From: Methylococcus geothermalis
Lineage (GTDB): Bacteria > Pseudomonadota > Gammaproteobacteria > Methylococcales > Methylococcaceae
Length of the DNA stretch: 64,000 nucleotides
NCBI RefSeq assembly: GCF_012769535.1
Contig: NZ_CP046565.1
Location: 1,316,501-1,380,500 of the forward strand
Direction of reading: 5' to 3'
Positions 1-18,158 of the stretch are shown here, in pieces. Under the pieces are notes generated by a model, which worked only from the letters and a program-made list of their open reading frames with translations, did not search any database and was not told the DNA's origin. A program made the translations under genes and the position numbers. The stretch's first letter is position 1. Each line of letters opens with the position of its first letter.

Positions 1-56
1 GGGGGCCGGCCTGGAGCCGGACGACTTTCCATGACATGTAACTTGGGGTTGACATT

Positions 57-1244
57 ATGAAAGAGACATTGGCTCGTTCCGGCGGGAAACCGGCCGGAAT
101 TCGCAACAAGGCGTTATCGTTGGCCGTGGTCATGGCTGCCGCGGGAACCGTTTCCACCGATGCATTTGCGGCGGCGACCTATTCCGGCAGTTGCCAGGGG
201 TGTCACGGCGCCTATGACGCCAACACTGGGCGTACGGCCGGCGGTTACGGTCCGGCTCTTTCGGGAGCGAAGAAGAACGCTTCGGCGACCAAGAAGGCGA
301 TTGCCAACGTCGCTGCGATGAACAGCTTGAGCAATCTCACCAACGCCGACTTGAATGCCATCGCACGGGAAATAGGTGGCGCGGCGGATCTTCCGGTGGC
401 GACGGCGACGCCCACACCCACACCGGCTCCGACGGCCACCCCGGCCCCGACGCCTAAACCGACCCCGGCTCCGACGACCACGCCGGCTCCGACGCCTAAA
501 CCGACCCCGGCTCCGACGACCACGCCGGCGCCCACGCCCGCTCCGTGCGCGGATGAATCAGAGCCTGAACTCGACACCATTCCGTCGCCGTGGGACGCCA
601 ACGTTGGCAAGGAGCTCAAGTTCACGGTGAGCGCCCTCGACTGCGACGATGATTCGTTGGTGATCAAGGCCAAGGGTCTTCCGAAGGGTGCGAGCATGAC
701 CCAAGGGTTCGATGTCAACACCCGCAAGCAGGTCGCAACCATCACCTGGACCCCGGGACCGGACGCCGAAGGCAAGATCTACCATGTCACGTTCACCGCC
801 GTAGAGTCGGAAGTCCGCGCCCAGAAACGGCGGGAGGGGGAGAGCAAGCAGGATGATCAGGGCCATTCCTCGGCATCTCGTTCCACCGATATTCGCGTAT
901 GGCCGGCGAACACCACGCCGGAAGCGGGAGCCGTCGAAGCGGTCGTGATCCAGCAGGCGCAATGGCAGTCTTCCAAGAAGACCGGCAAGCTCGCCGTGAA
1001 CGGCTCCATCAAGTTCAGCAAGCTTGTGACCGCAACTGAACGCGCTGCTTTGCTGGCCAATCCGGTGATCATCCGGACGGATAGCACTCAGGAGATCATC
1101 GGGCAAGCGACCGCGAACTCTTCCGGCAAGTGGTCGGCCAATCTTCCGTTGGCCAGCACGGCTGTCCCCTGCGTGGTGGATGCCGAGTTCGTGAGCGACA
1201 CCGCTTCCCGCCCGGTGAAACGCGCGCCGTCGCAATGCAAGTGA
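57..1244 (+). CDS. Secreted monoheme cytochrome with Thr/Pro linker and Ig-like domain
   Basis: 395 aa. An N-terminal signal peptide (about residues 15-39) is followed by a small c-type cytochrome domain with one CQGCH heme motif at 46-50. A Thr/Pro/Ala-rich linker runs from about 113 to 163. After it comes a beta-sandwich region resembling putative-Ig/cadherin-like repeats (LDCDDDSLVIKAKGLPKGA), then a C-terminal module with QW and GSIKF. The protein should be exported, with heme attached in the periplasm; the linker and Ig-like parts suggest a cell-surface or outer-membrane display role. The start is supported because the heme motif falls at exactly residues 46-50 in the downstream paralogue too. 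Electron donor and acceptor are unknown. Confidence 0.8.
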   Translation: MKETLARSGGKPAGIRNKALSLAVVMAAAGTVSTDAFAAATYSGSCQGCHGAYDANTGRTAGGYGPALSGAKKNASATKKAIANVAAMNSLSNLTNADLNAIAREIGGAADLPVATATPTPTPAPTATPAPTPKPTPAPTTTPAPTPKPTPAPTTTPAPTPAPCADESEPELDTIPSPWDANVGKELKFTVSALDCDDDSLVIKAKGLPKGASMTQGFDVNTRKQVATITWTPGPDAEGKIYHVTFTAVESEVRAQKRREGESKQDDQGHSSASRSTDIRVWPANTTPEAGAVEAVVIQQAQWQSSKKTGKLAVNGSIKFSKLVTATERAALLANPVIIRTDSTQEIIGQATANSSGKWSANLPLASTAVPCVVDAEFVSDTASRPVKRAPSQCK

Positions 1245-1518: not shown

Positions 1519-1551
1519 CTTTGTTATGACATGAAACTTGGGAGTTTCGAT

Positions 1552-3096
1552 ATGAATGTCAAATTAGTGAAATCAGGAACCAAGCCATCCGGCTATCAAT
1601 TCAGGACCTTGTCTATGGCAGTCATTGTTGCCGCGAGTGGCGGTTTCGCCTCCGAAACATTTGCCGCGGCCACCTATTCCGGCAGTTGCCAGGGGTGTCA
1701 CGGCGCCTATGACGCCAACACCGGCAGTACGGCCGGCGGTTACGGCCCGGCTCTTTCGGGAGCGAAGAAGAACGCTTCGGCGACCAAGAAGGCGATTGCC
1801 AACGTCGCTGCGATGAACAGCTTGAGCAATCTCAGCGACGCCGACTTGAATGCCATTGCCCTGGAAATAGATGGCGCGGCGGATCTTCCGGTGGCGACGG
1901 CGACGCCCACACCCACACCGGCTCCGACGATCCAGCCAACGCCGCTCCCGACGATCCAGCCAACGCCGCTCCCGACGATCCAGCCAACGCCGCTCCCGAC
2001 GATCCAGCCAACGCCGCTCCCGACGATCCAGCCAACGCCGCTCCCGACGATCCAGCCAACGCCGTTCCCGACGATCCGGCCAACGCCGTTCCCGACGATC
2101 CGGCCAACGCCGCTCCCGACGATCCGGCCAACGCCGTTCCCGACGATCCGGCCAACGCCGTTCCCGACGATCCGGCCAACGCCGCTCCCGACGATCCGGC
2201 CAACGCCGTTCCCGACGATCCGGCCAACGCCGTTCCCGACGATCCGGCCAACGCCGTTCCCGACGATCCGGCCAACGCCGCTCCCGACGATCCGGCCAAC
2301 GCCGTTCCCGACGATCCGGCCAACGCCGCTCCCGACGATCCGGCCAACGCCGTTCCCGACGATCCAGCCAACGCCGCTCCCGACGATCCAGCCAACGCCG
2401 CTCCCGACAATCCGGCCAACGCCGTTCCCCATGGGGTGTCTACCGGGATCCAAGCCCGAACTCGATACCCTCCCGACCGGTTGGAACATCCGGGCTGGAG
2501 AAATCCTGAAAATCACCCTGAGCGCACTTGACTGCGACGACGACGTCGTCACGATCAAGGGCATGAAGCTGCCGGAAGGGGCGAAATTGAGCCAGACATT
2601 CGATCCGGAGAGCCGCAAGCACGTCGCAACACTCACCTGGACGCCCAAGGCCGAGGATGCGGGCAAGACCTTTGACCTCGGCTTCCAGGCGGTCAACCTG
2701 GATCAAACGGGCCGTCAGACCGAAGCGTCCGATCCGAGGTGGACCAACGTGACCGTTCAGGCAACCCCGATCGACGTGCCCGATGTGGATTCGATCCAGG
2801 CGCTGATCATCCAGAAGGCGCAGTGGCTGGCGGATCAGGGCGAACTCATCCTGTCGGGGCTCATCAAGTTCGACAGGCAACTGAGCAAATCCGAACGCGA
2901 AGCGCTGGTTTCCAATCCGGTCACTCTGGTGGATGGTGCGACGGATGCCGTGCTCGCCGAGGTGTTCGCCGACGCGCGCGGCAAATGGCTGGCGAAGCTC
3001 CCCCTGGCCGAAGGATCCGTTCCCTGCACGGTGGAAGTCCAGTTCCAGGGCCAGACGGCCGTCCGTTCGGTGAAGCGCGCCCCGCAGTGCAAATAG
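1552..3096 (+). CDS. Secreted monoheme cytochrome with 21-copy PTPxPTI(Q/R) repeat linker
   Basis: 514 aa, paralogue of the gene at 57. Signal peptide to about residue 39, CQGCH at 46-50, then a repeat linker (residues 121-288) made of 21 octapeptides PTP(A/F/L)PTI(Q/R), then the Ig-like domain and the C-terminal QW...IKFDRQ module. I chose ATG 1552 over the in-frame ATG at 1531: it has a GGGAG ribosome site and gives the same heme position as the paralogue. The first 125 residues are nearly identical to the paralogue at DNA level, whereas the C-terminal half has clearly diverged. Predicted extended, proline-rich stalk presenting a heme domain; function unknown. Confidence 0.8.
1912..2415 (+). 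repeat. In-frame tandem repeat, 21 units of 24 bp
   Basis: Twenty-one consecutive 24-bp units encode PTP(A/F/L)PTI(Q/R). Unit variants differ at only two codons (gct/ctc/ttc and cag/cgg), so the array looks recently expanded and homogenised. Length is an exact multiple of three, keeping the gene open. It is coding DNA without spacers, so it is not a CRISPR array. Confidence 0.97.
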
Positions 3097-3275: not shown

Positions 3276-3680
3276 ATGCCCAAAGCAAGCCTGCCGAAAA
3301 AATTCTTCCGTTTCGTGTTCGTGGGCGGTTTGGCCACCGCTTTGCAGTACGCGATGCTCGTCGCGCTGGTCAGCCTCTGGCAGTGGCAGGTGACCCTCGC
3401 TTCCTCGCTGGGTTTCACGGCGAGTGCCGTTGTAAACTACTGGCTGAATTACAAACTGACGTTCAGGGCGAAGAACAGCCACCGAGTCGCGGCGTTCCGG
3501 TTTTCCCTCACGGCCGGTGCTGGGTTGCTGCTGAACGGAGCCATCGTACACCTCGGAATCACCTATACGCCTTTCCCTTACCTCTGGTCCCAGATTGCGG
3601 CGACCGTCGCCGTACTGTTCTGGAATTTCGTCGGCAGCCTCAAGTGGACGTACGCCCCGCCGGCTCGAAAATCCGCCTGA
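3276..3680 (+). CDS. GtrA-like membrane protein (polyprenyl-phosphate-sugar flippase family)
   Basis: 134 aa with four hydrophobic segments and the GtrA features FxFVGGxAT near the N-terminus and NYxLNYKxTF in the middle. GtrA proteins are thought to flip undecaprenyl-phosphate-linked sugars to the periplasmic face. ATG 3276 is preferred over an upstream GTG because the conserved family start (KKFFRFVFVGG) follows closely. The stop codon lies 19 bases before the glycosyltransferase start at 3700, so the two form the usual GtrA/GtrB pair. Confidence 0.8.
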   Translation: MPKASLPKKFFRFVFVGGLATALQYAMLVALVSLWQWQVTLASSLGFTASAVVNYWLNYKLTFRAKNSHRVAAFRFSLTAGAGLLLNGAIVHLGITYTPFPYLWSQIAATVAVLFWNFVGSLKWTYAPPARKSA

Positions 3681-3699
3681 CATGACAAAAGGATTCGCT

Positions 3700-4662
3700 A
3701 TGCGCACACTCGGTATCGTCGTGCCCTGCTTCAATGAAGAAGAAGCGTTGCCTGAGACCGCAAGACGGCTGGCCGTCCTGCTGCGGGATCTGCAAGACAA
3801 AGGCAAAATTGGGCCGGACTCACGGGTGTATTTCGTCGACGACGGCAGCACGGATGCAACCTGGCAGACCATTCGCGGCCTGGCGGAAACCTATGCCTTC
3901 GTCCGGGGAATGAAACTGTCCAGAAACCAGGGTCATCAGAGCGCGCTGCTTGCCGGTTTGATGCATGCGAGAGGGGACTGCCTGATCAGCATCGACGCCG
4001 ACTTGCAGGACGACCTGGCCGCCATCGAGTCGATGATCGACGCCCATGCCGCCGGTGCCGACATCGTCTACGGGGTTCGCAGGAACCGGAAGTCGGACTC
4101 GTTGTTCAAGCGCTGGAGCGCGGAATGGTATTACCGCGTCCTGGCGCTCATGGGGGTGGAAGTGGTGTTCAATCACGCCGACTATCGCTTGATGAGCCGG
4201 CGCGCCGTCGATGCCCTCAGGGAGTTCGGCGAGGTCAACCTGTTCCTTCGCGGGATCATACCGAAACTCGGATTCAACACCGCGACCGTCTATTACGACC
4301 GGGCGGAGCGTATCGCCGGGGAGTCCAAATATCCTTTGCGGAAAATGCTGGGCCTCGCCCTTCAGGGCGTCACTTCGTTTTCGGTATTTCCGCTGCGCCT
4401 CATTACCTTCCTGGGCTTTCTCATTTCCGCCGTCAGCTTCCTGGTGGTGTGCTGGGTGCTGTGGGTCCGGTTCGTCGCCGCCGAGGCCGTTCCGGGCTGG
4501 TCGTCGATCCTGCTGCCGATGAGCCTGCTCGGCGGCATCCAACTGCTGAGTCTGGGGGTCATCGGCGAGTATCTCGGCAAGATTTACATGGAAACCAAGC
4601 GCAGGCCTCGCTATTTCATCCAGGAAGTCGTCGCGCGCGATAACCAGGAATCGGGTACCTGA
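3700..4662 (+). CDS. GT2 glycosyltransferase, GtrB/dolichyl-phosphate mannose synthase type
   Basis: 320 aa. The GT-A motifs are present: VVPCFNEEEALPE at the N-terminus, DDGSTD at 47-52 and DADLQDD at 99-105. Two transmembrane helices at about 230-300 are typical of GtrB/DPM1-like enzymes that load a hexose from a nucleotide sugar onto a polyprenyl phosphate on the cytoplasmic face. ATG 3700 follows an AAAGGA ribosome site; an in-frame ATG at 3682 lacks one. It is paired with GtrA upstream and runs convergently into the PMT-type gene at 4672, whose likely donor is just this type of lipid-linked sugar. Sugar identity cannot be read from sequence. Confidence 0.85.
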   Translation: MRTLGIVVPCFNEEEALPETARRLAVLLRDLQDKGKIGPDSRVYFVDDGSTDATWQTIRGLAETYAFVRGMKLSRNQGHQSALLAGLMHARGDCLISIDADLQDDLAAIESMIDAHAAGADIVYGVRRNRKSDSLFKRWSAEWYYRVLALMGVEVVFNHADYRLMSRRAVDALREFGEVNLFLRGIIPKLGFNTATVYYDRAERIAGESKYPLRKMLGLALQGVTSFSVFPLRLITFLGFLISAVSFLVVCWVLWVRFVAAEAVPGWSSILLPMSLLGGIQLLSLGVIGEYLGKIYMETKRRPRYFIQEVVARDNQESGT

Positions 4663-4671
4663 CCTGGTGCT

Positions 4672-6030
4672 TCAGTTTTTCCATCCAGGAATCAAAAAGT
4701 AGACGGCATCGGCAAAACCCTGCGGGACGTGTATGCCGGTGTTGTTGGGATAGAACACGACAAACCAGAGAATCCCTGCGGCCAGGACAGATGTCGCGGT
4801 CATTCGATCGGCCTTTTCCTGACTGGCCAGATGGCCATCGAGCCAGCGGGCCAGAATGATGCACAGTATCGGCACCGCCGGCGCATAGTGGTAGAAGAAC
4901 ATGATCCTGGGCGAAATCGTCCACGGCAGCCAGAGCATGAAGTAGACCAGAAGAATGAATCCCACGGCCCAGCTCCTGTACCATTCCTTCTTCAGTATCG
5001 CTGCGGCAGCGGCATAAAGCCCGGCGTAAAAAATCACCGAGTTTCCGAGATTGTAAATATTGGCGATTTTTCCCTTCACCGAATAATCGACGTACATCCA
5101 TACCGGGCGGAGGTTGAGTATCCACTGCCAGGGCTGCGAATGGGCGGCATGGGTGGCTTTCAGTCCGGTATGGTAGAACCACATCTGGCGGAACAGTTCG
5201 ATGAAATCCGGCCAGCGGTAGCCCAGAGCGAAAAACTGCAGGTAGGACGACAGGTAGATCGCGATGGGCAGGAGACCCAGCGCGACGGGCATGTTGAGGC
5301 AGGCCGCCAGGGGAGGCAGGCGCCGGTGACGGACCGCCGTTACGCCGAGATCGACGGCCAGGACCAGAAACACGTAGAGCGTGGTCCATTTGGTCGCGAG
5401 CGCAAGGCCAAGTGCCGTTCCGGTGAAGTACAGCCAGCGAATCGAGGTCTCGTCTCTTTTCCAGCGGACATAGCCGATCAAGGCCGTCAACATGAAAAAG
5501 ATGAAGTAGATATCGTTCATCGCGATGCGGGATTGGCTGAGGATGAGACCATCCAGGCTCATCAGCGCCGCGGTCAGGACGGCGATGGGAAGGGAGCCGA
5601 ACAGCTCGAAAGCCAGCGCGGCGGCGGCAAGGGTGGCGAGGGTGCCGAAAATGACCGAACCGATGCGCCAGCCGAACGGATCCTCGCCGAAAACCGACAT
5701 CATTCCGGCCATGATCAGCTTGGACAAGGGCGGGTGCGTCCATTCATACGCCTTGCCAGGCGGCGATTTTGCCCAGGGGTCGTAGGCGTTCCGGTCGCCG
5801 TGCAGGACGACGGTCGCGGTGAAACCGTGATACACCTCGTCGAAATAAAAATCCTGCGGGTATTCGAGGCGGGCGATTTTCGTGAAAAAGCCGAACAGGA
5901 CGATCGCGGCGAACAATGTGAGAATCTTCTTATCCGCCAGAAGGCTGCCGAAAAAACCGGTGTCCTTTCTTTCTCGACCCAATGAAGCGGAATTCCCAGC
6001 GAATGCGGTTGTCATTGTTCTGCTGTTCAT
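4672..6030 (-). CDS. PMT/GT39-type membrane glycosyltransferase
   Basis: 452 aa multi-spanning membrane protein. The first periplasmic loop has the PMT-family acidic motif FDEVYH (63-68), then the THPPLSK motif (98-104), followed by about nine hydrophobic segments. PMT (GT-C fold) enzymes transfer a hexose from a polyprenyl-phosphate donor to protein Ser/Thr, or in relatives to lipid A. It lies 36 bases behind the beta-barrel gene and is the last gene of the multiheme cytochrome operon, which makes exported protein a plausible acceptor. Alternative: lipid A or other surface glycan modification. Confidence 0.8.
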   Translation of the reverse strand: MNSRTMTTAFAGNSASLGRERKDTGFFGSLLADKKILTLFAAIVLFGFFTKIARLEYPQDFYFDEVYHGFTATVVLHGDRNAYDPWAKSPPGKAYEWTHPPLSKLIMAGMMSVFGEDPFGWRIGSVIFGTLATLAAAALAFELFGSLPIAVLTAALMSLDGLILSQSRIAMNDIYFIFFMLTALIGYVRWKRDETSIRWLYFTGTALGLALATKWTTLYVFLVLAVDLGVTAVRHRRLPPLAACLNMPVALGLLPIAIYLSSYLQFFALGYRWPDFIELFRQMWFYHTGLKATHAAHSQPWQWILNLRPVWMYVDYSVKGKIANIYNLGNSVIFYAGLYAAAAAILKKEWYRSWAVGFILLVYFMLWLPWTISPRIMFFYHYAPAVPILCIILARWLDGHLASQEKADRMTATSVLAAGILWFVVFYPNNTGIHVPQGFADAVYFLIPGWKN

Positions 6031-6066: not shown

Positions 6067-8268
6067 TCAGAAATCCCAGCGGTATCCCACGTTGACATAA
6101 TAGCCTTTGGTATCGCGTTCGTTGAGCACCAGGGGTTTCGTCATGTATTCGAATCCTCCCTCCAGCTCGAAGTACAGTCCGTCGACCACGCGGTAGTTGA
6201 AGCGTGTGCCGGGACGAACGCGCCAAACGTCGGGGCCGTCGAAGCCGGTGAAATAGTCGACTCTCAACCTGGGATCGATGCGGATGTCGGGGGTGACCGG
6301 ATAATGCGCGTCCACGAATCCCGACAGGATATCGTCGATCTGTTGGGTCATGTAGCGCAGGCCGAAATTCCAAACGTCGTTGTCGGTGATCAGGCGGTTG
6401 GTGATGACCTGGCCGAAATACGAGACCTGGGTGCCCGATCCCTGATAGGCGGAAACCCAGGGCGAGCCTTTGGTCGCCGACAGATTGGAGACGGTGATGT
6501 CGGCATTGATCTGGGTGTCGGGGGTGATCGGCGTCATGCCGCTGATGCTGAGGTACTTGAACGTCGGCGTATTGTCCTCCGCCAGCGTCTTGAGGTCGAT
6601 GGTGTCCTGGTAGCGCAGGATGTCGCCGACCGAATCCGCGCCGTAGCCGGTGCCGGGACCGTATCCCGATCCCCAGCCGATCAGCGCGTTGCTGGTGCTC
6701 AGGTAGGGGGTTTTGCGGTAGTCGGCGGTCAGGGTGAGGATGGCGCCGTTGTCGAAGTTCCAGTTCGCGACCACTTGAGCCGTATTCAGCGCATTGAAGT
6801 GGACATCGTAGTCGAACAGGGTGAACAGCGGGTGCACGGGATGCTGGTAGCGGCCTTCACCGCCCACGGCCCGCCTGCCCAACAGGCCGTCGACGGTCTG
6901 GTTGATGAAGAACACGTTGCCGGCCCAGTAGTCCGCGAACGGCCCGAATTCCAGGGACGCGCCTTCGAAGGAGGTATTGGTGTTGGGGGCGGTGGAGCGA
7001 TAGGGCAACACGGGGAATCCCCCGATGACCGTGGCCTGCCACTGCGGCGCGAAACGGTAGCTGAGCACCCCGCCGTCGAAACGGCCCATGGCGCCGCCGC
7101 TGCTGCGCGACTGGCGTCCGATGCGGCCGGACACGCCGGTTGCCTTGTCGACGACATCGATGAATGCGTTGGCGACCCGGAATTGGTTGTTTTCGTCATA
7201 AACCACTTTCAGGAAGTTCTGGCGGTAGCGGGCATCGAATTGGGTCCGGATGTCGAACCGCTCGGTGCGCAGACGGCTGGTGACGTCCAGCACGGTGAGG
7301 AACAGCGACTGGTCGACGTATTCGCCTTGGTTGTCGGTGAGCAAGGCATCGCGGAAATAGTACTGGCCGAAGCTGCCGTAGGTTTCCCAGCCGCGCTCGG
7401 CGACCGGCGACGACGACAGCGGCGTCAGTTTTTCCTTGGGCTGTTGGTCGGCACTGTTCAGCGCGTCCAGGCGCTTCTTGACACGCTCGGCGGCTTCGCC
7501 TTCCGGGTAGCGTTGCAGGTATTTCTCGTATTCTGTCTTGGCTCGGAAAGCCTGGCCGTTGCGCTCGCGCGCCAAGCCCAGCATCTCCTGGGCTTCCCGC
7601 TGGTAGCTGGCGTCCGGCTGCTGAACCAGCTTGGTATAGAGGCCGATGGCGGCGGGCCAGTCTTCCTTGATCATGCACTGGCGCGCTGCTTCCTTCAGAT
7701 CGGCGGGCGGCGACTTGACCCGCAGGCCGGAGGCGCAGGCTCCGCTGGCGGGAGGGACGGGAAGGGACCGGTCGCCAGTCCCGACTCGATCGCCGTCGCC
7801 GGAGCCGGCGATCTCCACGTCGATGCCCTGGGCATCCTTGCCCGGCCTTACCTGGAAGTTGACGACGCGATTGAACCGCAGTGTCAGGAAATCTCCGCCG
7901 GGCTTTGTTTCGTAGCCCACTTCAGTCAGGGGAACTTCTGCGGTGGCCGGCCAGCGCAGCGTGCCCGGCTGCGGCACGACACCTTGCGCCGCGGCGGGAG
8001 ACGTCCGATTCACCCGGATGCGCAGGGTGTCGCCGGATTCCGCGGGCGAGTGCCGCACGTAGTTGACCGGTTCCGCCAGGCGGATGTGAATCACCGGCCG
8101 GCGTCCCGAACCGTCGACGTCAAGTCCTTCGAGGACGCCTTGAGCCATGGCGGCGGAAAACAGCGCCGGTGCCAGGAAACCGAAGATCGCCGGCGCGACG
8201 GTCCGCGCACATGCCATCGCTCGGGTGTGTCCTGAGGGGGCCGCCATCCGGGAAGTCATGATCGACAT
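6067..8268 (-). CDS. Outer-membrane beta-barrel protein with N-terminal AMIN-like and TPR regions
   Basis: 733 aa. Signal peptide (about 1-43), a beta-rich AMIN-like segment (VLEGLDVDGSGRRPVIHIRL...), a TPR-like helical stretch (about 185-275, EAARQCMIKEDWPAAIGLY...LQRYPEGEAAERVKKRL), then about 430 residues of alternating aromatic/polar beta strands ending in YRWDF, the terminal-Phe signature of outer-membrane barrels. The start is 6 bases after the 11-heme cytochrome stop, so they are co-transcribed. In that context it is a candidate porin sheath or surface anchor for the multiheme cytochromes, as in porin-cytochrome complexes. It is not an obvious MtrB/PioB homologue: the N-terminal CxxC of that family is not seen. 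Confidence 0.7.
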   Translation of the reverse strand: MSIMTSRMAAPSGHTRAMACARTVAPAIFGFLAPALFSAAMAQGVLEGLDVDGSGRRPVIHIRLAEPVNYVRHSPAESGDTLRIRVNRTSPAAAQGVVPQPGTLRWPATAEVPLTEVGYETKPGGDFLTLRFNRVVNFQVRPGKDAQGIDVEIAGSGDGDRVGTGDRSLPVPPASGACASGLRVKSPPADLKEAARQCMIKEDWPAAIGLYTKLVQQPDASYQREAQEMLGLARERNGQAFRAKTEYEKYLQRYPEGEAAERVKKRLDALNSADQQPKEKLTPLSSSPVAERGWETYGSFGQYYFRDALLTDNQGEYVDQSLFLTVLDVTSRLRTERFDIRTQFDARYRQNFLKVVYDENNQFRVANAFIDVVDKATGVSGRIGRQSRSSGGAMGRFDGGVLSYRFAPQWQATVIGGFPVLPYRSTAPNTNTSFEGASLEFGPFADYWAGNVFFINQTVDGLLGRRAVGGEGRYQHPVHPLFTLFDYDVHFNALNTAQVVANWNFDNGAILTLTADYRKTPYLSTSNALIGWGSGYGPGTGYGADSVGDILRYQDTIDLKTLAEDNTPTFKYLSISGMTPITPDTQINADITVSNLSATKGSPWVSAYQGSGTQVSYFGQVITNRLITDNDVWNFGLRYMTQQIDDILSGFVDAHYPVTPDIRIDPRLRVDYFTGFDGPDVWRVRPGTRFNYRVVDGLYFELEGGFEYMTKPLVLNERDTKGYYVNVGYRWDF

Positions 8269-8274
8269 GAACGG

Positions 8275-9237
8275 CTACCGAGTGAAGACCGGAAGAAACG
8301 AATGCGTATTCAGATGGCACTGGCTGCAATCCGGCGCCACATTCGGCTGCGGGTGGGGAGGGGCCGGCCGCGAGGTGATGCCGTAGATGTTCCCCGCCTC
8401 ATGGCAGCGCTGGCAGCCATGGGTGATATTGGCGCCGGTGTGGTCCATCCGTGCGCCGGCGAAGGTATGGAATTGCGCCGGGTTGTGGCAGGTTTCACAG
8501 GGCGTCGCCGGTACCGGGATGTGGTTGCGGGGCTGCCCGACGGCGAGCACGTTGTTGTGGCAGCGCGCGCAGCCGGACGCGATGCCCTCGTGGTTCATCC
8601 TGACCGCCGACCAGGCTGCGGTCGAAACATGGCAGGTTTCGCAAGCTTGCCCGGTCGGAATGTGGTTGGCCGGTTTGCCGGCAACCGTGACGTTGTTGTG
8701 GCACTGCCCGCATCCCGCTGAGACGCCCACATGATCGAACCGCGCGCCGGCCCAGGCGATCGTGGAGCGGTGGCAGGTTTCGCAAGGGGCGTTGGTGGGA
8801 ATGTGATTGGGCGGCTTGCCGGGTGCGAAGACGTTGTTGTGGCAGCTTGCGCAATTGTTGACGATGCCGGCGTGGTTCATGTTGACGAGCTGCCAGCTCA
8901 CGTTCGGGAGGAAGTCGTTGTGGCAGACGTCGCAATCTTCCGTGGTCGGGATGTGATTGGGCGATTTCTTGGACGCTTCGATGTCGGTCGCCAGTTGATG
9001 GCAGCCGATGCAGCGGCGCGGCGTGCCCTTGAAGATGCCGCGGACGTGGCACTGTTCGCAGGTCAGATGTTCATGGGCTCCCCGCAGCGGAAACCCGGTA
9101 TTGAGGTGCTCGAAATCCTTGGGCGTGGCCGGCCGCTCGGCTGCGGATGCGATTGTGAAGAGGGCTCCCAGCAAGACCGGAACAATCAGGGCGATGAATG
9201 TGAACGGCGAAGTCGTTGCGGAGACTGAGGTATTCAC
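8275..9237 (-). CDS. Undecaheme (11 CxxCH) c-type cytochrome
   Basis: 320 aa. A signal peptide (about 1-33, FIALIVPVLLGALFTIASA) precedes eleven CxxCH motifs. The central region repeats a roughly 37-residue unit containing NHIPT..CETCH and MNHxG...CxxCHNN. Expected to be a periplasmic or outer-membrane-associated electron-transfer protein with covalent c hemes. It lies 55 bases after the 21-heme cytochrome and 6 bases before the beta-barrel gene. Redox partners are not known; the three-gene order suggests electron transfer across the outer membrane. Confidence 0.9.
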   Translation of the reverse strand: MNTSVSATTSPFTFIALIVPVLLGALFTIASAAERPATPKDFEHLNTGFPLRGAHEHLTCEQCHVRGIFKGTPRRCIGCHQLATDIEASKKSPNHIPTTEDCDVCHNDFLPNVSWQLVNMNHAGIVNNCASCHNNVFAPGKPPNHIPTNAPCETCHRSTIAWAGARFDHVGVSAGCGQCHNNVTVAGKPANHIPTGQACETCHVSTAAWSAVRMNHEGIASGCARCHNNVLAVGQPRNHIPVPATPCETCHNPAQFHTFAGARMDHTGANITHGCQRCHEAGNIYGITSRPAPPHPQPNVAPDCSQCHLNTHSFLPVFTR

Positions 9238-9292
9238 TGGCTTCTCCTTGCATCAATGGTGGATCGTCGTGGGCCCACGACGGCATGCGGTT

Positions 9293-10879
9293 TCATCTGA
9301 GGCGCTGCTTCAATTGATTGAACCCTTGCGGCGTATGGCAGCGGCCGCATTCCCTGCCGTAGGCCCCGCGGTGCGGTTCGTCCTTTTCGTGGCAACCAAA
9401 GCAATCGCTGGATAGCGCGATTCGGCCGTCGGCGGCCGCCGGACGTTTGTGGCAACCGGTGCAGACCAGCTTTTCGTGTTTGCCCTCGAGCGGGAAACCG
9501 GTTTCCTTGTCGTGGTCGAAATGCCAGATGCGCCAGCCGTTCGGCGTGTGGCAGCGGTCGCAGTTGCGGCCCAAGGCCTCGCCATGGGGGTCGTCCTTCC
9601 GGTGGCAGGACGCGCACTGGGTTTCGGCGTCCCGGAAACTCGCGGTCAGATGGCATTCGGCGCAAGGGGTGATGGCGTGCAGGCCGGTGAGCGGAAATTG
9701 GGTCAGATCGTGGCTGAATGCGACATCGACGCGCCAACCCCGGTCGGTATGGCATGTCTCGCAGGCGTCCCCCTCCTGGTTCTTGTGGGGATCGTTTTTC
9801 TTGTGGCACGAGACGCAGTTGAGGCTGAGCTTGTCCTCGTCCATCGCGCCTTTGTGACAGCTAACGCAGGCGACGGTGCTGTGGCTGTTGCGCAGCGGGA
9901 ACCGCGTCGCGGCGTGATCGAACGTGGTTTTCGCCCAGCTTTGCGGAGTGTGGCAGTCCTCGCAGCGGTTGCCACGGCGGCCCTTGTGCTCGTCGTCTTT
10001 CTCGTGGCAGGACACGCATGCCATTGCCGGCTTGTTGTCGAAAGGATCGGCCTTGTGGCAGCTTTCGCAGGAAGTCTTGTCGTGTTTTCCCGTCAGTGGA
10101 AATCGGGTGTCGCGCCGGTGATCGAACTTGGGTTTGTTCCATTTCGTTGTTTCATGGCACTTGTCGCACTTTTGCCCCATGTGTCCGGCATGGACGTCAT
10201 TGATTTCATGGCAGGCGTAACAGCTGCGGACCGTCTCCTTGAAGCGACGGTCGGCGTGGCAGTTGCCGCAAGCCACGTCCTTGTGGCTGCCCGTCAGGGA
10301 AAACCGTGTCTTCGCATGGTCGAACTTCGTTTCCTTCCAGCCGGCTTCGCTATGGCAGTCGGTGCACTTGTCGCCCAGGCGGCCTTCGTGGGGTTCGTCG
10401 TCCTGGTGGCAGACCGCGCATTGGTGCGAGGCCTCGCGGTATTTTTTCTTGTCCAGGTGGCAGCGGGAGCATTCGACCTTCAAGTGTTCGCCTTTCAGCA
10501 GGAAGTCGGTGTTCCGGTGGTCGAAGGTTTCCTTGTCCAGCCCCATGATGTCGAAGTGCCGTCCCTTGTGCTCGCCGTGGCAGTCCTTGCATTTCCGGTC
10601 TTCCATGTTTTTCAGGTGGCCGTGGAATCCCTTGCCGGTTTCGATGTCCTCGGCCTGCTCCTTGTGGCAGGCCAGGCATAAGGCATTGGGTACGGTTTGC
10701 GTGGGCTGATCGTGGCACTTCCGGCATTGCTGTTCGTACTTGGCGTGCCCCGAGATCAACTCGCCGGGCATGACCAGCGACTTGAGCGCATTCGCGGTCG
10801 ACGGCGGGGGCAAGAGGGCAAATGCCGTCCATAACAGGACCAGAGGCAAGCGGGCGAAAATCCGGGGTTTCATGATCAT
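9293..10879 (-). CDS. 21-heme c-type cytochrome built of seven triheme repeats
   Basis: 528 aa with a signal peptide (1-31) and 21 CxxCH motifs by direct count. From the fourth heme on the protein repeats a roughly 75-residue unit carrying three hemes: FDHxxTxFPLxGxHxxxxCxxCH, then CxxCHxKDDxHxG, then CxxCHTPxGW. Such a string of closely spaced hemes makes a molecular wire, so periplasm-spanning or extracellular electron transfer is expected. It is the first gene of the operon running to 4672. ATG 10879 or the ATG six bases downstream could start it; neither has a strong ribosome site. Confidence 0.92.
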   Translation of the reverse strand: MIMKPRIFARLPLVLLWTAFALLPPPSTANALKSLVMPGELISGHAKYEQQCRKCHDQPTQTVPNALCLACHKEQAEDIETGKGFHGHLKNMEDRKCKDCHGEHKGRHFDIMGLDKETFDHRNTDFLLKGEHLKVECSRCHLDKKKYREASHQCAVCHQDDEPHEGRLGDKCTDCHSEAGWKETKFDHAKTRFSLTGSHKDVACGNCHADRRFKETVRSCYACHEINDVHAGHMGQKCDKCHETTKWNKPKFDHRRDTRFPLTGKHDKTSCESCHKADPFDNKPAMACVSCHEKDDEHKGRRGNRCEDCHTPQSWAKTTFDHAATRFPLRNSHSTVACVSCHKGAMDEDKLSLNCVSCHKKNDPHKNQEGDACETCHTDRGWRVDVAFSHDLTQFPLTGLHAITPCAECHLTASFRDAETQCASCHRKDDPHGEALGRNCDRCHTPNGWRIWHFDHDKETGFPLEGKHEKLVCTGCHKRPAAADGRIALSSDCFGCHEKDEPHRGAYGRECGRCHTPQGFNQLKQRLR

Positions 10880-11155
10880 GAAGCCGGTTGAGCAAGATGC
10901 GTTCCATCCGGCAAATGGGGGCGCTTTCCTGATTGGCCACCCACGCTATCGCAGACATGGCGGCCGTTTCGTCATTTCCCGGCGCGGTGCTTCGCGATCG
11001 GCTGTCGGGAAGCAGGCTCGAATGGGCGTCCGCACCCGACAGGTCGAGTTCGATTCCAGCGGGTACGGGTTGAGTGGGGTCGAAGACGGGAACCTTGCCA
11101 GGACAAGAACGCGGTTTGGCAGCCGCGATGGCCGGTATAAGGGTATACTGTGCGC
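10880..11155. other. Intergenic region between the cytochrome operon and rnpB
   Basis: No convincing gene. It should contain the leftward promoter of the 21-heme cytochrome operon and the rightward promoter of rnpB; a TATACT -10-like hexamer lies at 11144-11149, seven bases before the RNA start, without a well-spaced -35. Confidence 0.5.
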
Positions 11156-11510
11156 GGAGTCGGCCAGACAGCCGCTGTCCTCAAGGGGATGGAGGAAAGT
11201 CCGGGCTCCACAGGGCAGGGTGCCAGGTAACGCCTGGGGGGCGCGAGCCTACGGAAAGTGCCACAGAAAATATACCGCCCCGGTTCGTCCGGGGTAAGGG
11301 TGAAATGGTGCGGTAAGAGCGCACCGCGCTTGCGGTAACGCCAAGCGGCAGGGTAAACCCCATCCGGAGCAAGACCAAATAGGGGGGCATTGGGTTCGCC
11401 CAGACGTGCGGCCCGCACGGCTCCCGGGTAGGTCGCTCGAGGCGTACGGCGACGTACGTCCCAGATGAATGGCTGTCCACGACAGAACCCGGCTTATCGG
11501 CCGACTCCTT
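11156..11510 (+). ncRNA. rnpB: RNase P RNA (bacterial type A)
   Basis: The ribozyme core is recognisable throughout: GAGGAAAGTCCGGGCTCC near 11190, CAGGGTGCCAGGTAACGCC near 11216, GGGTGAAATGGTGCGGTAAGAG near 11300, AAACCCCATCCGGAGCAAG near 11355, and ACAGAACCCGGCTTATCGG near the 3' end. The terminal helix P1 pairs GGAGTCGGCC (11156) with GGCCGACTCC (ending 11508), followed directly by a T run. The RNA matures tRNA 5' ends with the RnpA protein. It converges on the SDR gene ending at 11517. Confidence 0.97.
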
Positions 11511-11516
11511 TTTCTC

Positions 11517-12473: not shown

Positions 12474-12836
12474 ATGAAGATCGCCGCCTACGCGTTTTCG
12501 CCGATCGTCCTGCCGATTCTGCTCGCAGGCTGCGCCAAGGACGCTCCGACGCCGGAAGCGCCTCCCCTGGCGAACTACAAGCCGGACTATCGGCAGGGGA
12601 TGTACACCTACAGCATGTACTGCTCGCGCTGCCATGATACGGGAGAGGACGGGGCGCCGATGCTGGATGATGTGGACGAGTGGGAGTCCCGCGGCATCCT
12701 TTGGCCCTCCCTCCTGCAGGACCATGTGCGGGACGGTTTTCTTCACATGCCATCCATGGGGCAGACCGGGTTATCGGAGCAGAATATCGCGGATGTGATC
12801 TATTTCATGACGGTCAAGATCGAAGCCGGCAAGTAG
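12474..12836 (+). CDS. Lipoprotein-anchored monoheme c-type cytochrome
   Basis: 120 aa. The lipobox LLAGC puts the lipidated Cys at 20, and the heme motif CSRCH is at 50-54. HMPSMGQTGLSE downstream supplies a likely axial Met, and NIADVIYFM is the usual C-terminal helix of class I cytochromes. Ribosome site AGGAAG sits about 8 bases before the start. A membrane-tethered small electron carrier in the periplasm. The mature domain resembles the cytochrome at 14675, so the two are probable paralogues. Confidence 0.85.
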   Translation: MKIAAYAFSPIVLPILLAGCAKDAPTPEAPPLANYKPDYRQGMYTYSMYCSRCHDTGEDGAPMLDDVDEWESRGILWPSLLQDHVRDGFLHMPSMGQTGLSEQNIADVIYFMTVKIEAGK

Positions 12837-12884: not shown

Positions 12885-13490
12885 ATGATGAAGCAACTCG
12901 AATGTCGGCCGGCGTTGCGCTCCGGAGCGAGTCTGGGGCTGGTCCTCGTGATCGCCCATGCCTCGGGATGCGCGTCCAGTCCGGTTCCCGAATCGCTGCG
13001 CAAGCAGGCCGCCTGGCAGCCCAGCAGTTTCAACGAGATCAAGACACACGCCTCGCTGTACCGGGACCGGATGGTGATCCTGGGCGGTGATATCGTGCAG
13101 ACCCGCCATCTCGGCAAGACCTCGGAGATCGAGGTCGTGCAGAAATCGCTCGACAGTGCCGACCGGCCGGAGCGGACCGACAGTTCCGGCGGCCGGTTCC
13201 TGGCCGAGTGCCCCTATTTCGTCGATCCGACGATTTACGAAAAAGACCGCGAGCTGACGGTGGCCGGGAAGGTGATCGGCGAACGCGCCCAGAAGCTCGA
13301 CGAGGCCGAATACGACTACCTGGTGGTCGGTTGCGATTATCTGCATCTTTGGCCCGAGCGGCAGCCGGCCGTCTACTACCCGTACCCCTACGCCTGGTAT
13401 GGCTGGGGATGGCCGTACTACTACTACCCGTACTCGTTCTACTACCCGTACTATCCGGGGCCGATGCGAGCTCCGGTCAAGCGCCGCTAA
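12885..13490 (+). CDS. slp: Slp-family outer-membrane lipoprotein
   Basis: 201 aa. Lipobox HASGC places the lipidated Cys at 29. The body matches the Slp family (VPESLRKQ...FNEIKTHASLYRDRMVILGGDIVQTRHL...TELEVVQKSLD-type region), known in E. coli as a starvation- and acid-induced outer-membrane lipoprotein of uncertain function. The last 40 residues are strikingly aromatic, with Tyr/Pro/Trp-rich runs, which is longer than in E. coli Slp. Follows the cytochrome by 48 bases and converges on yjbQ with only 3 bases between stops. Confidence 0.85.
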   Translation: MMKQLECRPALRSGASLGLVLVIAHASGCASSPVPESLRKQAAWQPSSFNEIKTHASLYRDRMVILGGDIVQTRHLGKTSEIEVVQKSLDSADRPERTDSSGGRFLAECPYFVDPTIYEKDRELTVAGKVIGERAQKLDEAEYDYLVVGCDYLHLWPERQPAVYYPYPYAWYGWGWPYYYYPYSFYYPYYPGPMRAPVKRR

Positions 13491-14602: not shown

Positions 14603-14674
14603 AGGCTTCGCCCCATTGGATTGGCGCATGGAATCATCAATAATTCGACTTTCCCTGATCGAGGAGTCGCCCGC

Positions 14675-15025
14675 ATGAACACCCGAATCGCCCTGGCCGC
14701 CTGCGCACTGCTGACGGCGTCCGCCGCATTGGGCGAAGAGCCTTCCGCCCCGGTCACGGGCGACAAGCTCGACGCCAAACACGGCGCGAAGGTTTATCGC
14801 TCGGCCTGCGCCGGCTGCCACGACAAGGGAAAGGAAGGGGCGCCGAGGCTGGACCAGCCGGGGAGCTGGAAGAGCCGTTCGTTCGAATCCTTTTCCGTCA
14901 TGGAGAATCATGCCCGCGGCGGATTCCTCAAGATGCCGCCCAAGGGCCGCAGGCCGCTGCTTTCCGACCGCGATGTCGCCGATGCGGTGTTCTACATGAC
15001 CCAGCGGCTCGAAGGCGGGAAGTGA
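14675..15025 (+). CDS. Periplasmic monoheme c-type cytochrome
   Basis: 116 aa. Signal peptide (1-20), CAGCH at 45-49, GGFLKMPP supplying the probable axial Met, and a closing helix DVADAVFYMTQRL. Start at 14675 has GAGGAG upstream. Similar layout to the lipoprotein cytochrome at 12474. The stop overlaps the next start (GTGA), so both are translated as a pair. Confidence 0.87.
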   Translation: MNTRIALAACALLTASAALGEEPSAPVTGDKLDAKHGAKVYRSACAGCHDKGKEGAPRLDQPGSWKSRSFESFSVMENHARGGFLKMPPKGRRPLLSDRDVADAVFYMTQRLEGGK

Positions 15026-15842: not shown

Positions 15843-18158
15843 TTAGAAGCTGATGGTGATGCTCCCGCGCAGCATCCGGGGCTCCACCGGATGGATGAGC
15901 TTGCCTTCCACGCCTTCCGGCGGCTGGTTCTGCAGGCGGTACTGGTAGTAGTAGGCGATGTCGTTGGCCCTGGAATCGAAGATGTTGAACAGGTCCAGCG
16001 TCAGCTTGATGTTCTCTTCCTGCCAGCCCAGGCCGAAGTTGACCAGGGTGGTGTCACCCAGAAACACCGTTCCCGCCTCGTTGAGCGGCACGTTGCTGAA
16101 GTGGCGCAGCCTTAGGGTCGACCAGAAGCCGTAGGGCATTTGCACCGTGGCGCCGCTGGTGATGACGTTGCCGACCGAGTTGGGGATGCTGTTGTCTCCG
16201 CTGGGCAGATCGGTGTAGTACGACTTGGTGAAGGCCAGATCGGCGTCCAGGGTCAGCCAGTCGGTGGCCTGGTAATAGTTGGCCCATTCCACGCCATAGC
16301 GGTTGCCGGGGCCGGTCGGTTCGGTGGTGCCGGCATCGCCCGTGAACACGAGTTCCGAGGCGGTGTGCAGGAACCAGAACGCCAGCGTGCTGTTGAGCCC
16401 CGGAATGTACTGGCTGCGCGCCCCGATTTCAGCGCCCTTGGAGCGGACCATCGGGGTCACGGCATGAACCGGATCGCCATTGGTCGGGTTCACGCTTTCG
16501 ACCGCCCCGCGGGCATCGTTGGAATGGAAGCCGTAACCCATGTTGACGAAGAACTCGGTGTCCACCCAGGGGCCGAACACCATGCTGAGCTTGGGGCTGA
16601 CCATGCTGGAATTGCGGTTGCCGGAATTCAGGGGCGTCAGTTGGCTGTCCACGTTGAAGACGAAGATGTCGTTGCGCAGGCCGGCGATGGTCTTGAACTT
16701 CTCCATCCAGAAGGTTTCGTTCTTGAAGTACATGCCGATGCTGGTTTCGGACACGTTGTTGCGGCTGACGATGTTGAACACCTCGCGCCACTGGGTATTG
16801 GCCAGTTCCAGCCCGCCGATCTGGTCATGGCGGATCTGCAGACCCAGGCTGTTTTCCATGGGGGTGTCGAACAGCTTGTTGAACCAGGTCTGAGACGCCG
16901 TGCCGCCGTAATACACGCGGTGTTCGCCCTGCAGGATCTGGTCGCCCTGTTGCGGATGCTCCAGAAAATAGGTGAAGTCCGAATACAGGTCGAGATCGTA
17001 GTAGGCGGCGTACAGGTTGACTTCGCTCTTGGAGGATTCGCCCCGGCTCCAGAGATTGGTGGACAGGCTGTAGCGGTTGGTATTGCCGCCGTCGCTGCGG
17101 TTCATGGTGCCGTAGAGGTCGAGCTGATTCGCCAGCACCAGCGCTTCGGGAATCTGGTTGGTGGCGTACCAGCGCGAGTTGTAGCCCTTGGCGATCACCG
17201 AAAGGCCCCAGTCCTGTTTGTCGATGGTGTAGCGCAGCATGCCGTTGAATTGGTTCAGGTCCATCGGCCGCTGCCAGGGGCCGTCATAGAAGTTCACCGA
17301 AGCGGCGTAGAGCAGATCGCCCGGACCCAGCTCGTTGGAATTGGCCGCGACCGTGCGGTAGTAGTTGTACTCGCCGCCGGTGAAGTTGACGAAGCCTTGC
17401 GGCAGCCGGTGCTTGGTATGCATGTAGGCGTAGCCGGCCGCGGAGAAGTCGCCCATTTCCGCGTAGTACGGTCCCTTGCCGTACTCCACCCGGTCCACCA
17501 GCTCCGGGATGATGCTGTTGAGGTCCATGTAGCCCTGGCCGTGGGCGTTGGTCGGCAGGTTCATCGGCACGCCGTCGACCCAGGTGGCGAAGTCGGTGCC
17601 GTGGTCCAGGTTGAAACCGCGCAGGAAATACTGGTTGGCCTTGCCGGTGCCGCTGTGCTGCGTGGCCAGCATGCCGGGCACGACCTCCACCAGTTCGCCG
17701 ACACGCAGCAGGGGCCGGTACTTGAACTGGTTCTGGCCTACCACGCCTTGGGAGGCCGATTGCGTCAAACCGATCAGGTCGGTTTCGCGTCCGACCACTT
17801 CCACCGTTTCCAGGCTGACCGGTTCTTCGATGAGCTGCGGGTCGTTTTCGTCGTCGTCGTCTTTCTTCGGTTTTGGCTTTGCCTTTGCCTTAGCTATAGG
17901 CCTTCCCTTCGAATCGGCAGGAGTCGTGGTTTGTGACCGGGCGTCGGTCTGGGCCTCCGGTTCGGCCTGTGGCTGTGCTTCGGACGGGGGTTGCGGCTGC
18001 GGATGGGCGAAACCGACGGCAGGGCAGGCGGAGCCCAGCGTACACAGAATCGCCCAGATCTTGCGGGTATCCTGGATCGCACCGCGGAAATAGCGGGTGT
18101 CCTGAAATGCGGCGGCCTTTGGCACGCGGCGCGGAGTGATGATTTTTCTTGCTTGCAT
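15843..18158 (-). CDS. TonB-dependent outer-membrane receptor
   Basis: 771 aa. An N-terminal signal-like segment (about 33-51) is followed by an unusual charged and Pro-rich stretch (52-105, with alternating Lys/Ala and an Asp run). The TonB box ETVEVV is at about 117-122, then a plug domain (VGELVEVVPGMLATQHSG...NQYFLRGFNLDHGTDFATWVDGVP) and a barrel ending in GSITISF. It imports a scarce ligand using TonB energy; substrate is not evident, though the neighbourhood is rich in metal and cytochrome genes. No B12-type leader is visible upstream. Confidence 0.9.
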   Translation of the reverse strand: MQARKIITPRRVPKAAAFQDTRYFRGAIQDTRKIWAILCTLGSACPAVGFAHPQPQPPSEAQPQAEPEAQTDARSQTTTPADSKGRPIAKAKAKPKPKKDDDDENDPQLIEEPVSLETVEVVGRETDLIGLTQSASQGVVGQNQFKYRPLLRVGELVEVVPGMLATQHSGTGKANQYFLRGFNLDHGTDFATWVDGVPMNLPTNAHGQGYMDLNSIIPELVDRVEYGKGPYYAEMGDFSAAGYAYMHTKHRLPQGFVNFTGGEYNYYRTVAANSNELGPGDLLYAASVNFYDGPWQRPMDLNQFNGMLRYTIDKQDWGLSVIAKGYNSRWYATNQIPEALVLANQLDLYGTMNRSDGGNTNRYSLSTNLWSRGESSKSEVNLYAAYYDLDLYSDFTYFLEHPQQGDQILQGEHRVYYGGTASQTWFNKLFDTPMENSLGLQIRHDQIGGLELANTQWREVFNIVSRNNVSETSIGMYFKNETFWMEKFKTIAGLRNDIFVFNVDSQLTPLNSGNRNSSMVSPKLSMVFGPWVDTEFFVNMGYGFHSNDARGAVESVNPTNGDPVHAVTPMVRSKGAEIGARSQYIPGLNSTLAFWFLHTASELVFTGDAGTTEPTGPGNRYGVEWANYYQATDWLTLDADLAFTKSYYTDLPSGDNSIPNSVGNVITSGATVQMPYGFWSTLRLRHFSNVPLNEAGTVFLGDTTLVNFGLGWQEENIKLTLDLFNIFDSRANDIAYYYQYRLQNQPPEGVEGKLIHPVEPRMLRGSITISF

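Follow-up and report, generated by a model that had tools for sequence, protein, structure and literature searches.

A putative PCC3-type outer-membrane conduit in Methylococcus, with no inner-membrane protein found

A run of three genes in Methylococcus geothermalis, lying in the 64,000-nucleotide stretch analyzed here (the window), matches the outer-membrane half of PCC3, a candidate electron conduit of wide occurrence, and hence presents no new conduit design. Its products, a 21-heme cytochrome, an 11-heme cytochrome, and a putative porin, probably carry electrons through the outer membrane. The real oddity of the Methylococcus set is the missing PCC3 inner-membrane protein (IMP), while the other three parts remain. 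We think it likely that the set is a PCC3-type outer-membrane conduit half, whose IMP was lost in Methylococcus and which is fed by another source. This reading draws on the genes themselves, their heme motifs, order, homology, and co-occurrence, the purifying selection upon them, and the failure to find an IMP.

The operon and its porin

The genes form one tight leftward run, as a preliminary description had it, and the open reading frames, the gaps (55 and 6 bases), and the CXXCH counts all agree with that account (Table 1); a further 36 bases separate the run from the next gene. CXXCH occurs 21 times in the 21-heme protein, 11 times in the 11-heme protein, and never in the porin; the maximum per open frame is one in 20 mononucleotide shuffles of the window. 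The 21-heme protein consists of seven triheme units, with a unit spacing of mostly 66-68 residues. Signal peptides of the three products were read by eye. The same genes and heme counts are conserved in three other Methylococcus genomes, and the operon also is present in the M. capsulatus Texas strain. A mannosyltransferase-like gene adjoins the porin in genome G043 as well as in the window.

Table 1. The three-gene operon of the window, the parts of its porin, and the upstream region
Feature	Position	Strand	Remarks
21-heme c-type cytochrome	9293..10879	-	528 aa; putative periplasmic wire
11-heme c-type cytochrome	8275..9237	-	320 aa, GTG start; putative surface (extracellular) multiheme subunit
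Putative PCC3-type outer-membrane porin	6067..8268	-	733 aa
Porin, signal region			
Porin, AMIN-like beta domain	residues ~46-153		
Porin, TPR	residues ~188-272		
Porin, putative beta-barrel	residues ~290-733		
Intergenic region upstream of operon	10880..11155	.	IMP gene site in most relatives (e.g. G043)

The intergenic region upstream of the window operon holds no IMP gene match. Promoter-like sites are no commoner than in shuffles, with none upstream of the operon; terminator-like sites are commoner (14 vs 6.9), scattered over both strands. Among sequences of solved structures, the 21-heme protein has no match at E <= 0.01, the 11-heme protein has ten weak matches (best E 4e-4; seven are MtrC), and the porin has two, at E 0.11 and 0.22.

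The preliminary description gave the third protein AMIN-like, TPR, and outer-membrane barrel parts, and no CXXC; these assignments held within limits, the last part of the protein being barrel-like. The TPR is a sub-threshold Pfam match; the AMIN-like part, with no Pfam match at E <= 1, is read from structure comparison with E above 0.001; and the cysteines, at positions 20, 178, and 198, form no CXXC. The putative barrel end, first noted as YRWDF, extends to GYRWDF, whose final F is kept in all 10 aligned homologues. The C-terminal part shows barrel-like strand alternation (z = 5.7 vs shuffles; z = 0.1 for the TPR part), with about 24 alternation peaks at an arbitrary threshold. The full-length structure model, made from a five-sequence alignment, has a pLDDT of 40.9 and is not reliable as a barrel model, and the structure comparison is based on the N-terminal 247 residues alone (pLDDT 73.5). 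For this part Foldseek gave no match at E <= 0.001. The first match by E, a flagellar scaffold (1.3e-3), was set aside for its TM-score of 0.24; the structural neighbors are the B2 domain of PilQ and the TPRs of YbgF and BamD. PilQ, YbgF, and BamD are proteins of secretion, division, and assembly. AMIN-like and TPR N-termini are the usual plan of this porin family: AMIN-like part, TPR, and barrel occur together in 29 of the 37 frames that bear a barrel (20 of 28 after removal of the genomes that supplied the model).

Kinship with PCC3 and other conduits

The AMIN/TPR barrel earlier suggested a non-canonical conduit. In that sense the suggestion falls, and what does depart from the canon, the absent IMP, lay beyond the view of the preliminary description: the plan is common, and PCC3 was named in 2017 by He et al., who, by their account, put it forward from iron oxidizers with a Methylococcaceae strain already on the list (PMC5566968). 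Named PCC3 clusters include Slit_0867-0870 and Slit_1446-1449 of Sideroxydans lithotrophicus ES-1 (tags, PMC8788666). The PCC3 periplasmic multiheme cytochrome is described as having 21 (24, 27) hemes, and the second PCC3 cytochrome in Gallionellaceae 10-35 (PMC10734462); the IMP is described as cytochrome-b-like, with five helices, two WX3HX13H motifs, and SGXXG (PMC5566968). The link drawn here to the named ES-1 and Leptothrix clusters is built on the motifs of the IMPs, the order of the genes, and the numbers of hemes.

A search across genomes for the three-gene order, one of the checks first proposed, found that order to recur in the same class with the IMP upstream: IMP, 21-heme cytochrome, second multiheme cytochrome, porin. 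For 20 of the 22 uncut loci outside Methylococcus, the IMP gene stands directly upstream of the 21-heme gene (four cut loci excluded). Aligned IMPs bear WX3HX13H twice along with SGXXG, and all 14 of those aligned keep the residues W, H, H, S, G, and G. Along its whole length, the 21-heme protein shows homology to the first multiheme cytochrome encoded in PCC3-type clusters. Its orthologues have 38-47% identity in genomes from other families, and 56% in two genera that share its family. Among the uncut orthologues, 22 of 25 contain 21 hemes, and the others (24, 24, and 18) depart in steps of three. The 11-heme protein shows homology to the second multiheme cytochrome of such clusters, with local alignments at 27-45%.

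Co-occurrence supports well the porin-cytochrome gene logic that was first proposed: of the 301 genomes of the order, 10 have the 21-heme protein, and every one of these also has the porin. Moreover, 34 of 37 loci having a barrel-bearing porin include a frame with at least six CXXCH; the others are L056 (a whole short contig), L074 (which runs off the contig end), and L086.

The Methylococcus set resembles PCC3 in clustering a porin with a 21-heme and a further multiheme cytochrome; in having few residues per heme (25.1 for the 21-heme and 29.1 for the 11-heme protein vs 22-39 as given by He et al.); and in having homologous loci elsewhere whose IMPs have the He motifs. It differs in the lack of an IMP in the cluster, with none found in the genome either, and in its small second cytochrome (11 hemes vs a median of 34 as given by He et al.). 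The literature covered, which leaves aside most subscription journals and all supplements, describes no IMP-less PCC3 and no PCC3 in the genus Methylococcus.

MtrCAB, MtoAB, and PioAB have the same logic of barrel, periplasmic cytochrome, and surface multiheme cytochrome, but the set here has 21 hemes rather than 10, and a porin without CXXC. MtrB/PioB membership of the porin was rejected for lack of a match to MtrB_PioB (PF11854), either for the porin at E <= 1 or in any of six Methylococcus genomes at E <= 0.001; 1 of 14 control genomes matched, below cut-off. The decaheme MtrA/DmsE family was rejected as well (TIGR03508, 24.3 bits for the 11-heme and 19.9 bits for the 21-heme protein vs a cut-off of 192.2). 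The copper-responsive cluster CRC1 of M. capsulatus (Bath), MCA0421-MCA0447, similarly contains multiheme cytochromes and an outer-membrane barrel (MCA0427), but by description its cytochrome c553o genes adjoin what is putatively an operon of eleven genes, with 58 heme motifs, in an order unlike that of the window operon (PMC4831470, PMC6281684). The Methylobacter methane-bioanode porin-cytochrome cluster also is a putative conduit of scattered distribution in the Methylococcales, but is described as having an MtrA-type decaheme, an MtrB/PioB-type porin, and two monoheme cytochromes (PMC13322032).

The missing inner-membrane protein

At E <= 0.001, the PCC3 IMP was found in none of six Methylococcus genomes, the single-contig genome of the window included. 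It is present in 45 of 51 other porin-bearing genomes (15/15 and 30/36), or in 31 of 37 without the 14 model-building genomes, which match by construction. (The order search supplied 7 and the class search 48 of the 55 porin-bearing non-Methylococcus genomes, of which 51 were examined for the IMP; left out were G386, with a partial porin match, G486, G513, and G601, three of them near-threshold porin matches.) The six without an IMP match are G455, G458, G477, G600, G602, and G657. Across the order, 32 of 301 genomes have IMP matches at E <= 0.001, but E falls below 1e-80 in just 7. The remaining 25 matches, with E from 1e-21 to 1e-3, are weaker, and most represent partial relatives; that of porin-bearing G007, counted above as IMP-positive, is among them. 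The tie between IMP and conduit has exceptions: besides the six porin-bearing genomes without an IMP match, there is G253, which has a strong IMP match but where the 21-heme protein and porin were not found. Since a single loss of the IMP is the simplest account for Methylococcus, its six genomes do not count as six independent observations.

The IMP might have been replaced: the set would then belong to a complete trans-envelope PCC3, in which an unrelated quinol-oxidizing membrane protein (another di-heme cytochrome b, or bc1) takes the place of the IMP and the conduit works on the same principle as before. This is a serious possibility, although short of a probable one. Cytochrome-b-like membrane proteins are common. 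With the IMP itself described as cytochrome-b-like by He et al., a substitute is conceivable, and in two genomes of one family (f8) the IMP gene lies at a distance of ~10 and ~17 kb from that of the 21-heme protein, which shows that the two need not be neighbors. Arguing against replacement, besides the six-genome IMP search, are the absence of any replacement gene within the operon and the results for NapC/CymA, which has no match above cut-off in the six genomes. Sub-threshold, partial matches in five of them (21-23 bits vs a cut-off of 24.1) lie within frames of eight hemes rather than in any tetraheme membrane protein.

Electron flow, selection, and loss

In the conduit half that we favor, the seven triheme units of the 21-heme protein would make up a periplasmic wire with one end inserted in the barrel protein, which would bring the wire to the 11-heme protein on the outside. 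The component lost would be PCC3's own inner-membrane cytochrome-b-like protein. Another electron source is proposed because no PCC3 IMP, and no CymA/NapC above cut-off, was found in the genus: most likely, soluble periplasmic c-type cytochromes of methanol oxidation or the bc1 complex would feed the wire, and outward flow would vent surplus electrons or balance the redox state. We infer that the proteins sit in or at the membrane and form a complex, as we do the electron donor and the direction of flow. Extracellular electron transfer in a Methylococcus has already been demonstrated by experiment: M. capsulatus (Bath) is reported to reduce ferrihydrite and an anode, with a contribution of another cytochrome, MCA0421, to the anodic current (PMC6281684). 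Without MCA0421, Bath reportedly retains 73% of current (86 vs 118 nA per cm2; PMC6281684), which leaves room for other conduits.

Inward flow, in which electrons from Fe(II), Mn(II), or an electrode would provide reducing power, is somewhat unlikely. It accords with the proposal of PCC3 from iron oxidizers (PMC5566968), with the suggestion by Tanaka et al. of reducing power via surface cytochromes under copper limitation (PMC6281684), and with the higher level of the inner-membrane gene of PCC3 copy 2 in iron-oxidation-capable cells of Sideroxydans CL21 (PMC12442390). However, the other PCC3 genes of CL21 are expressed regardless of iron-oxidation ability (PMC12442390); the part that in CL21 goes with iron oxidation is the very one not found in Methylococcus; both ES-1 PCC3 clusters are downregulated on Fe(II) (PMC8788666); and the Methylococcus experiments, as reported, show outward flow (PMC6281684). 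That PCC3 itself has no demonstrated function (PMC12442390), like the Fe(II) downregulation in ES-1, counts against the favored conduit as well.

A bolder form of outward flow, which we judge decidedly unlikely, is that the wire was re-plugged after loss of its quinol-oxidizing IMP partner, such that it draws electrons directly from the periplasmic methanol-oxidation cytochromes and delivers them outside, bypassing the quinone pool. If so, the re-plugged wire would couple C1 oxidation to extracellular acceptors.

The operon is intact in four of six Methylococcus species and persists as relics in two: a 21-heme fragment with a porin tail in G003, and a porin tail in G004. These remains differ, so there probably were two separate losses; loss in two of the six also means that the operon is dispensable, a point against the favored conduit. 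(The neighboring mannosyltransferase gene, 4672-6030, remains in both species without the operon, and a link to it was rejected.) Might the set everywhere be a functionless remainder, under removal since the IMP was lost? The differing relics fit such decay, as does the rate of the 21-heme protein with some outgroups. With the nearest outgroup, it evolves faster than in the IMP-bearing sister genus (71 vs 32 changes, P = 1e-4). With G043 as the sister, the window lineage has more 21-heme changes with every one of 20 outgroups (7 at P < 0.05), and the porin leans to a faster window lineage with 2 of 10 outgroups and the opposite way with 8 (none at P < 0.05), the outgroups not being mutually independent. 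The faster 21-heme evolution could also mean relaxed constraint, which likewise tells against the favored conduit. Yet in the four species all three genes are open, the 21 and 11 hemes are kept, and dN/dS is 0.11-0.22, at synonymous divergence of up to ~1.1; decay is therefore highly doubtful. On our reading, the set would be an outer-membrane conduit under selection, with its electrons coming from another source, perhaps the periplasmic cytochrome pool.

Finally, a pairing of two soluble periplasmic cytochromes with an unrelated AMIN/TPR outer-membrane protein (an export protein, for example), which the PilQ, YbgF, and BamD likenesses of the porin N-terminus would suit, is scarcely credible against gene order and co-occurrence that hold across genera and the multiheme frames that accompany nearly all barrel-bearing porins.

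With one of four PCC3 parts apparently lost and three under selection, Methylococcus offers a natural experiment on the role of that part. The source of electrons for the Methylococcus set is a testable question. M. capsulatus (Bath) is reported to be both growable and genetically alterable (PMC6281684), so that experiments within the genus could address the donor, the direction, and any part played in metal- or electrode-linked methane oxidation.

The three-gene set in Methylococcus

The three-gene set is real and well conserved, and is a variant of porin-cytochrome c complex 3 (PCC3) that lacks the PCC3 inner-membrane protein (IMP). The preliminary description reported three contiguous leftward genes, 55 and 6 bases apart, two of them encoding multiheme cytochromes of 21 and 11 hemes; open reading frame positions and gaps bear out the arrangement, and CXXCH counts the heme numbers (at most one CXXCH per open frame in 20 shuffled windows). 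The genome is a single contig of 3.37 Mb. Its putative porin is closest, among the four named relatives listed, to that of M. capsulatus Texas (87% identical), which suggests that the genome belongs to Methylococcus (order Methylococcales, class Gammaproteobacteria).

Features of the three-gene operon and its surroundings in the window
Feature	Position	Strand	Remark
21-heme cytochrome ORF	9293-10879	-	21 CXXCH counted
11-heme cytochrome ORF	8275-9237	-	11 CXXCH counted
Putative porin ORF	6067-8268	-	0 CXXCH counted
RNase P RNA gene	11156-11512	+	Upstream of operon, divergent
Mannosyltransferase-like gene			36 bases downstream of operon
Family-2 glycosyltransferase gene and the same mannosyltransferase-like gene	3595-6030		Adjoin operon; still present where operon lost
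Two monoheme cytochrome c-like proteins	57-1244, 1531-3096		Long C-terminal extensions; similar genes in locus L001
Monoheme cytochrome c	12474-12836		Near operon; lipoprotein-like N-terminus
Slp-family lipoprotein	12885-13490		Near operon
Second monoheme cytochrome c	14621-15025		Near operon
TonB-dependent receptor	15843-18158		Near operon

Across four Methylococcus species every heme motif is retained, and pairwise dN/dS is low for all three genes: 0.12-0.22 (21-heme), 0.11-0.16 (11-heme), and 0.15-0.19 (porin). Compared with G043, the nearest IMP-bearing genus, the 21-heme protein has evolved somewhat faster in Methylococcus, a difference that reached significance with 7 of 20 outgroups; for the porin, none of 10 did so. 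Two other Methylococcus species carry only relics: a 46-residue 21-heme match plus the last 21 porin residues in G003, and a porin tail in G004. Because these remains differ, two separate operon losses are likely. The relics in these two species lie at L076 (~4600-5900, near a transposase-like ORF at 4615-5073, judged by eye) and L077 (~6700-6950).

PCC3 and the missing inner-membrane protein

In the definition of He et al. 2017, PCC3 combines a porin with multiheme cytochromes, extracellular as well as periplasmic, and with an IMP bearing SGXXG and two WX3HX13H motifs; their list already includes a Methylococcaceae strain (PMC5566968, in part). An alignment of 14 IMPs from relatives' loci reveals invariant residues W108-H112-H126, S149-G150-G153, and W290-H294-H308, in exactly that published spacing, and the family is therefore identified without a named sequence.

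At E <= 0.001, the porin was found in 13 of the 301 genomes searched from the order Methylococcales and in 50 of the 369 from the class Gammaproteobacteria. In another draw, from the phylum, 6 of 398 have it (E <= 1e-30), one of the six outside the class. A comparison of neighbourhoods across genomes shows that the gene order recurs, usually with the IMP first: IMP, 21-heme, second multiheme, porin. The second cytochrome has 11 to 69 hemes in loci with readable order. The 25 uncut 21-heme orthologues, including three from Methylococcus and leaving out four cut ones, have 21 hemes in 22 cases, 24 in two, and 18 in one. The IMP gene lies directly upstream of the 21-heme gene in 20 of 22 uncut non-Methylococcus loci, and ~10 and ~17 kb away in the other two.

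Two loci, L003 (1-18247) and L004, raise a question of binning. In a MAG labelled Desulfuromonas (MnB_14), the ORFs on either side of the porin are cytochromes with at least 62 and at least 68 CXXCH, the latter incomplete at the locus end. Closely similar DNA also occurs in MnB_9, a MAG labelled Methylococcaceae, so one of the two bins may be mislabelled. Beside a PCC3-type porin, L064 (3-8237, +) has a 5'-incomplete ORF with 88 CXXCH, exceeding the largest count known to He et al. 2017, 85 (PMC5566968, in part).

The IMP model matches none of the six Methylococcus genomes (E <= 0.001), but matches 15/15 and 30/36 other porin-bearing genomes (31/37 when the 14 genomes that built it are excluded). 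Within the order, 10 of 301 genomes encode the 21-heme protein (E <= 1e-60). Of these, the six non-Methylococcus genomes each give a strong IMP match (E < 1e-80), and the four from Methylococcus give none. A strong IMP match also comes from G253, in which neither 21-heme protein nor porin was found, and weaker, mostly partial IMP-like matches occur in 25 of the 301. In G043 the IMP gene is directly upstream; its product finds only chance-level matches (E above 2) in Methylococcus upstream DNA, and no match at all in the upstream stretch of the window. In the tree of 21-heme proteins, Methylococcus clusters with two members of its family, G043 and G101 (support 0.88 and 0.997), which makes IMP loss on the Methylococcus stem the simplest history.

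No NapC/CymA relative scores above cut-off in the six Methylococcus genomes (E. coli control positive). Partial matches just below it in five (21-23 bits; cut-off 24.1) were rejected as CymA-like proteins because they fall in 8-heme frames (L091-L095); a 6-heme frame adjoins in three. Because one part that the published definition requires was looked for without success, the set should not be classed as a full PCC3.

Anatomy of the porin and cytochromes

Porin residues 44-290 were modelled (pLDDT 73.5) as a beta domain plus five helices. Structural neighbours of the model, none at E <= 0.001, include PilQ B2 (probability 1.00, E 8e-3), which we take to be an AMIN domain, and the YbgF and BamD TPRs (E 2e-3 to ~1e-2). 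The first part of the N-terminus thus appears AMIN-like in the model; the porin's own TPR match is sub-threshold (E 4e-4). Over the C-terminal 444 residues, the sequence alternates as beta strands do (z = 5.7, ~24 peaks; z = 0.1 in the TPR part as control). We infer a beta-barrel here, and only infer it, because the full-length model failed (pLDDT 41).

This AMIN-like, TPR, and barrel architecture is present in 29 of 37 barrel-bearing frames (nine of them from genomes that supplied the model); the AMIN part is absent or weak in seven, and one frame is incomplete. The suggestion of a new, non-canonical conduit design therefore falls: the set is a PCC3 variant, and its porin architecture is widely shared. 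(Neither "TPR" nor "tetratricopeptide" is mentioned in the partial texts of PMC5566968 and PMC10734462.) A stand-alone AMIN-like frame of ~150-210 residues lies near the porin in 11 loci: L050, L054, L055, L057, L058, L060, L068, L070, L073, L079, and L081. In L054, L068, and L079 the porin itself is without the AMIN-like part.

The 21-heme protein consists of seven triheme units, most spaced 66-68 residues. It has 26 histidines outside CXXCH motifs, so a second ligand is possible for each of its hemes; the 11-heme protein has 15 such residues. Both cytochromes match the Cytochrome_C7 and Cytochrom_c3_2 families.

Proposed electron transfer at the outer membrane

Published work on M. capsulatus (Bath) supports outward conduction: with formate as donor the strain reduces both ferrihydrite and an anode, with methanol it reduces ferrihydrite less strongly, and it did not grow by these reductions; deletion of MCA0421, a separate cytochrome, lowers current from 118 to 86 nA per cm2 (PMC6281684, in part). 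Two observations count against a role for PCC3 in iron oxidation: both ES-1 clusters are down on Fe(II) (PMC8788666, in part), and the CL21 PCC3 is expressed whether or not iron is oxidised, except that the inner-membrane gene of copy 2 is higher in iron-oxidising cells (PMC12442390, in part).

The Methylococcus set is homologous to the outer-membrane part of PCC3, and probably works like that part. We think that it still carries electrons across the outer membrane, where its proteins would be located; flow would be outward, and the donor would be periplasmic cytochromes or another membrane donor.
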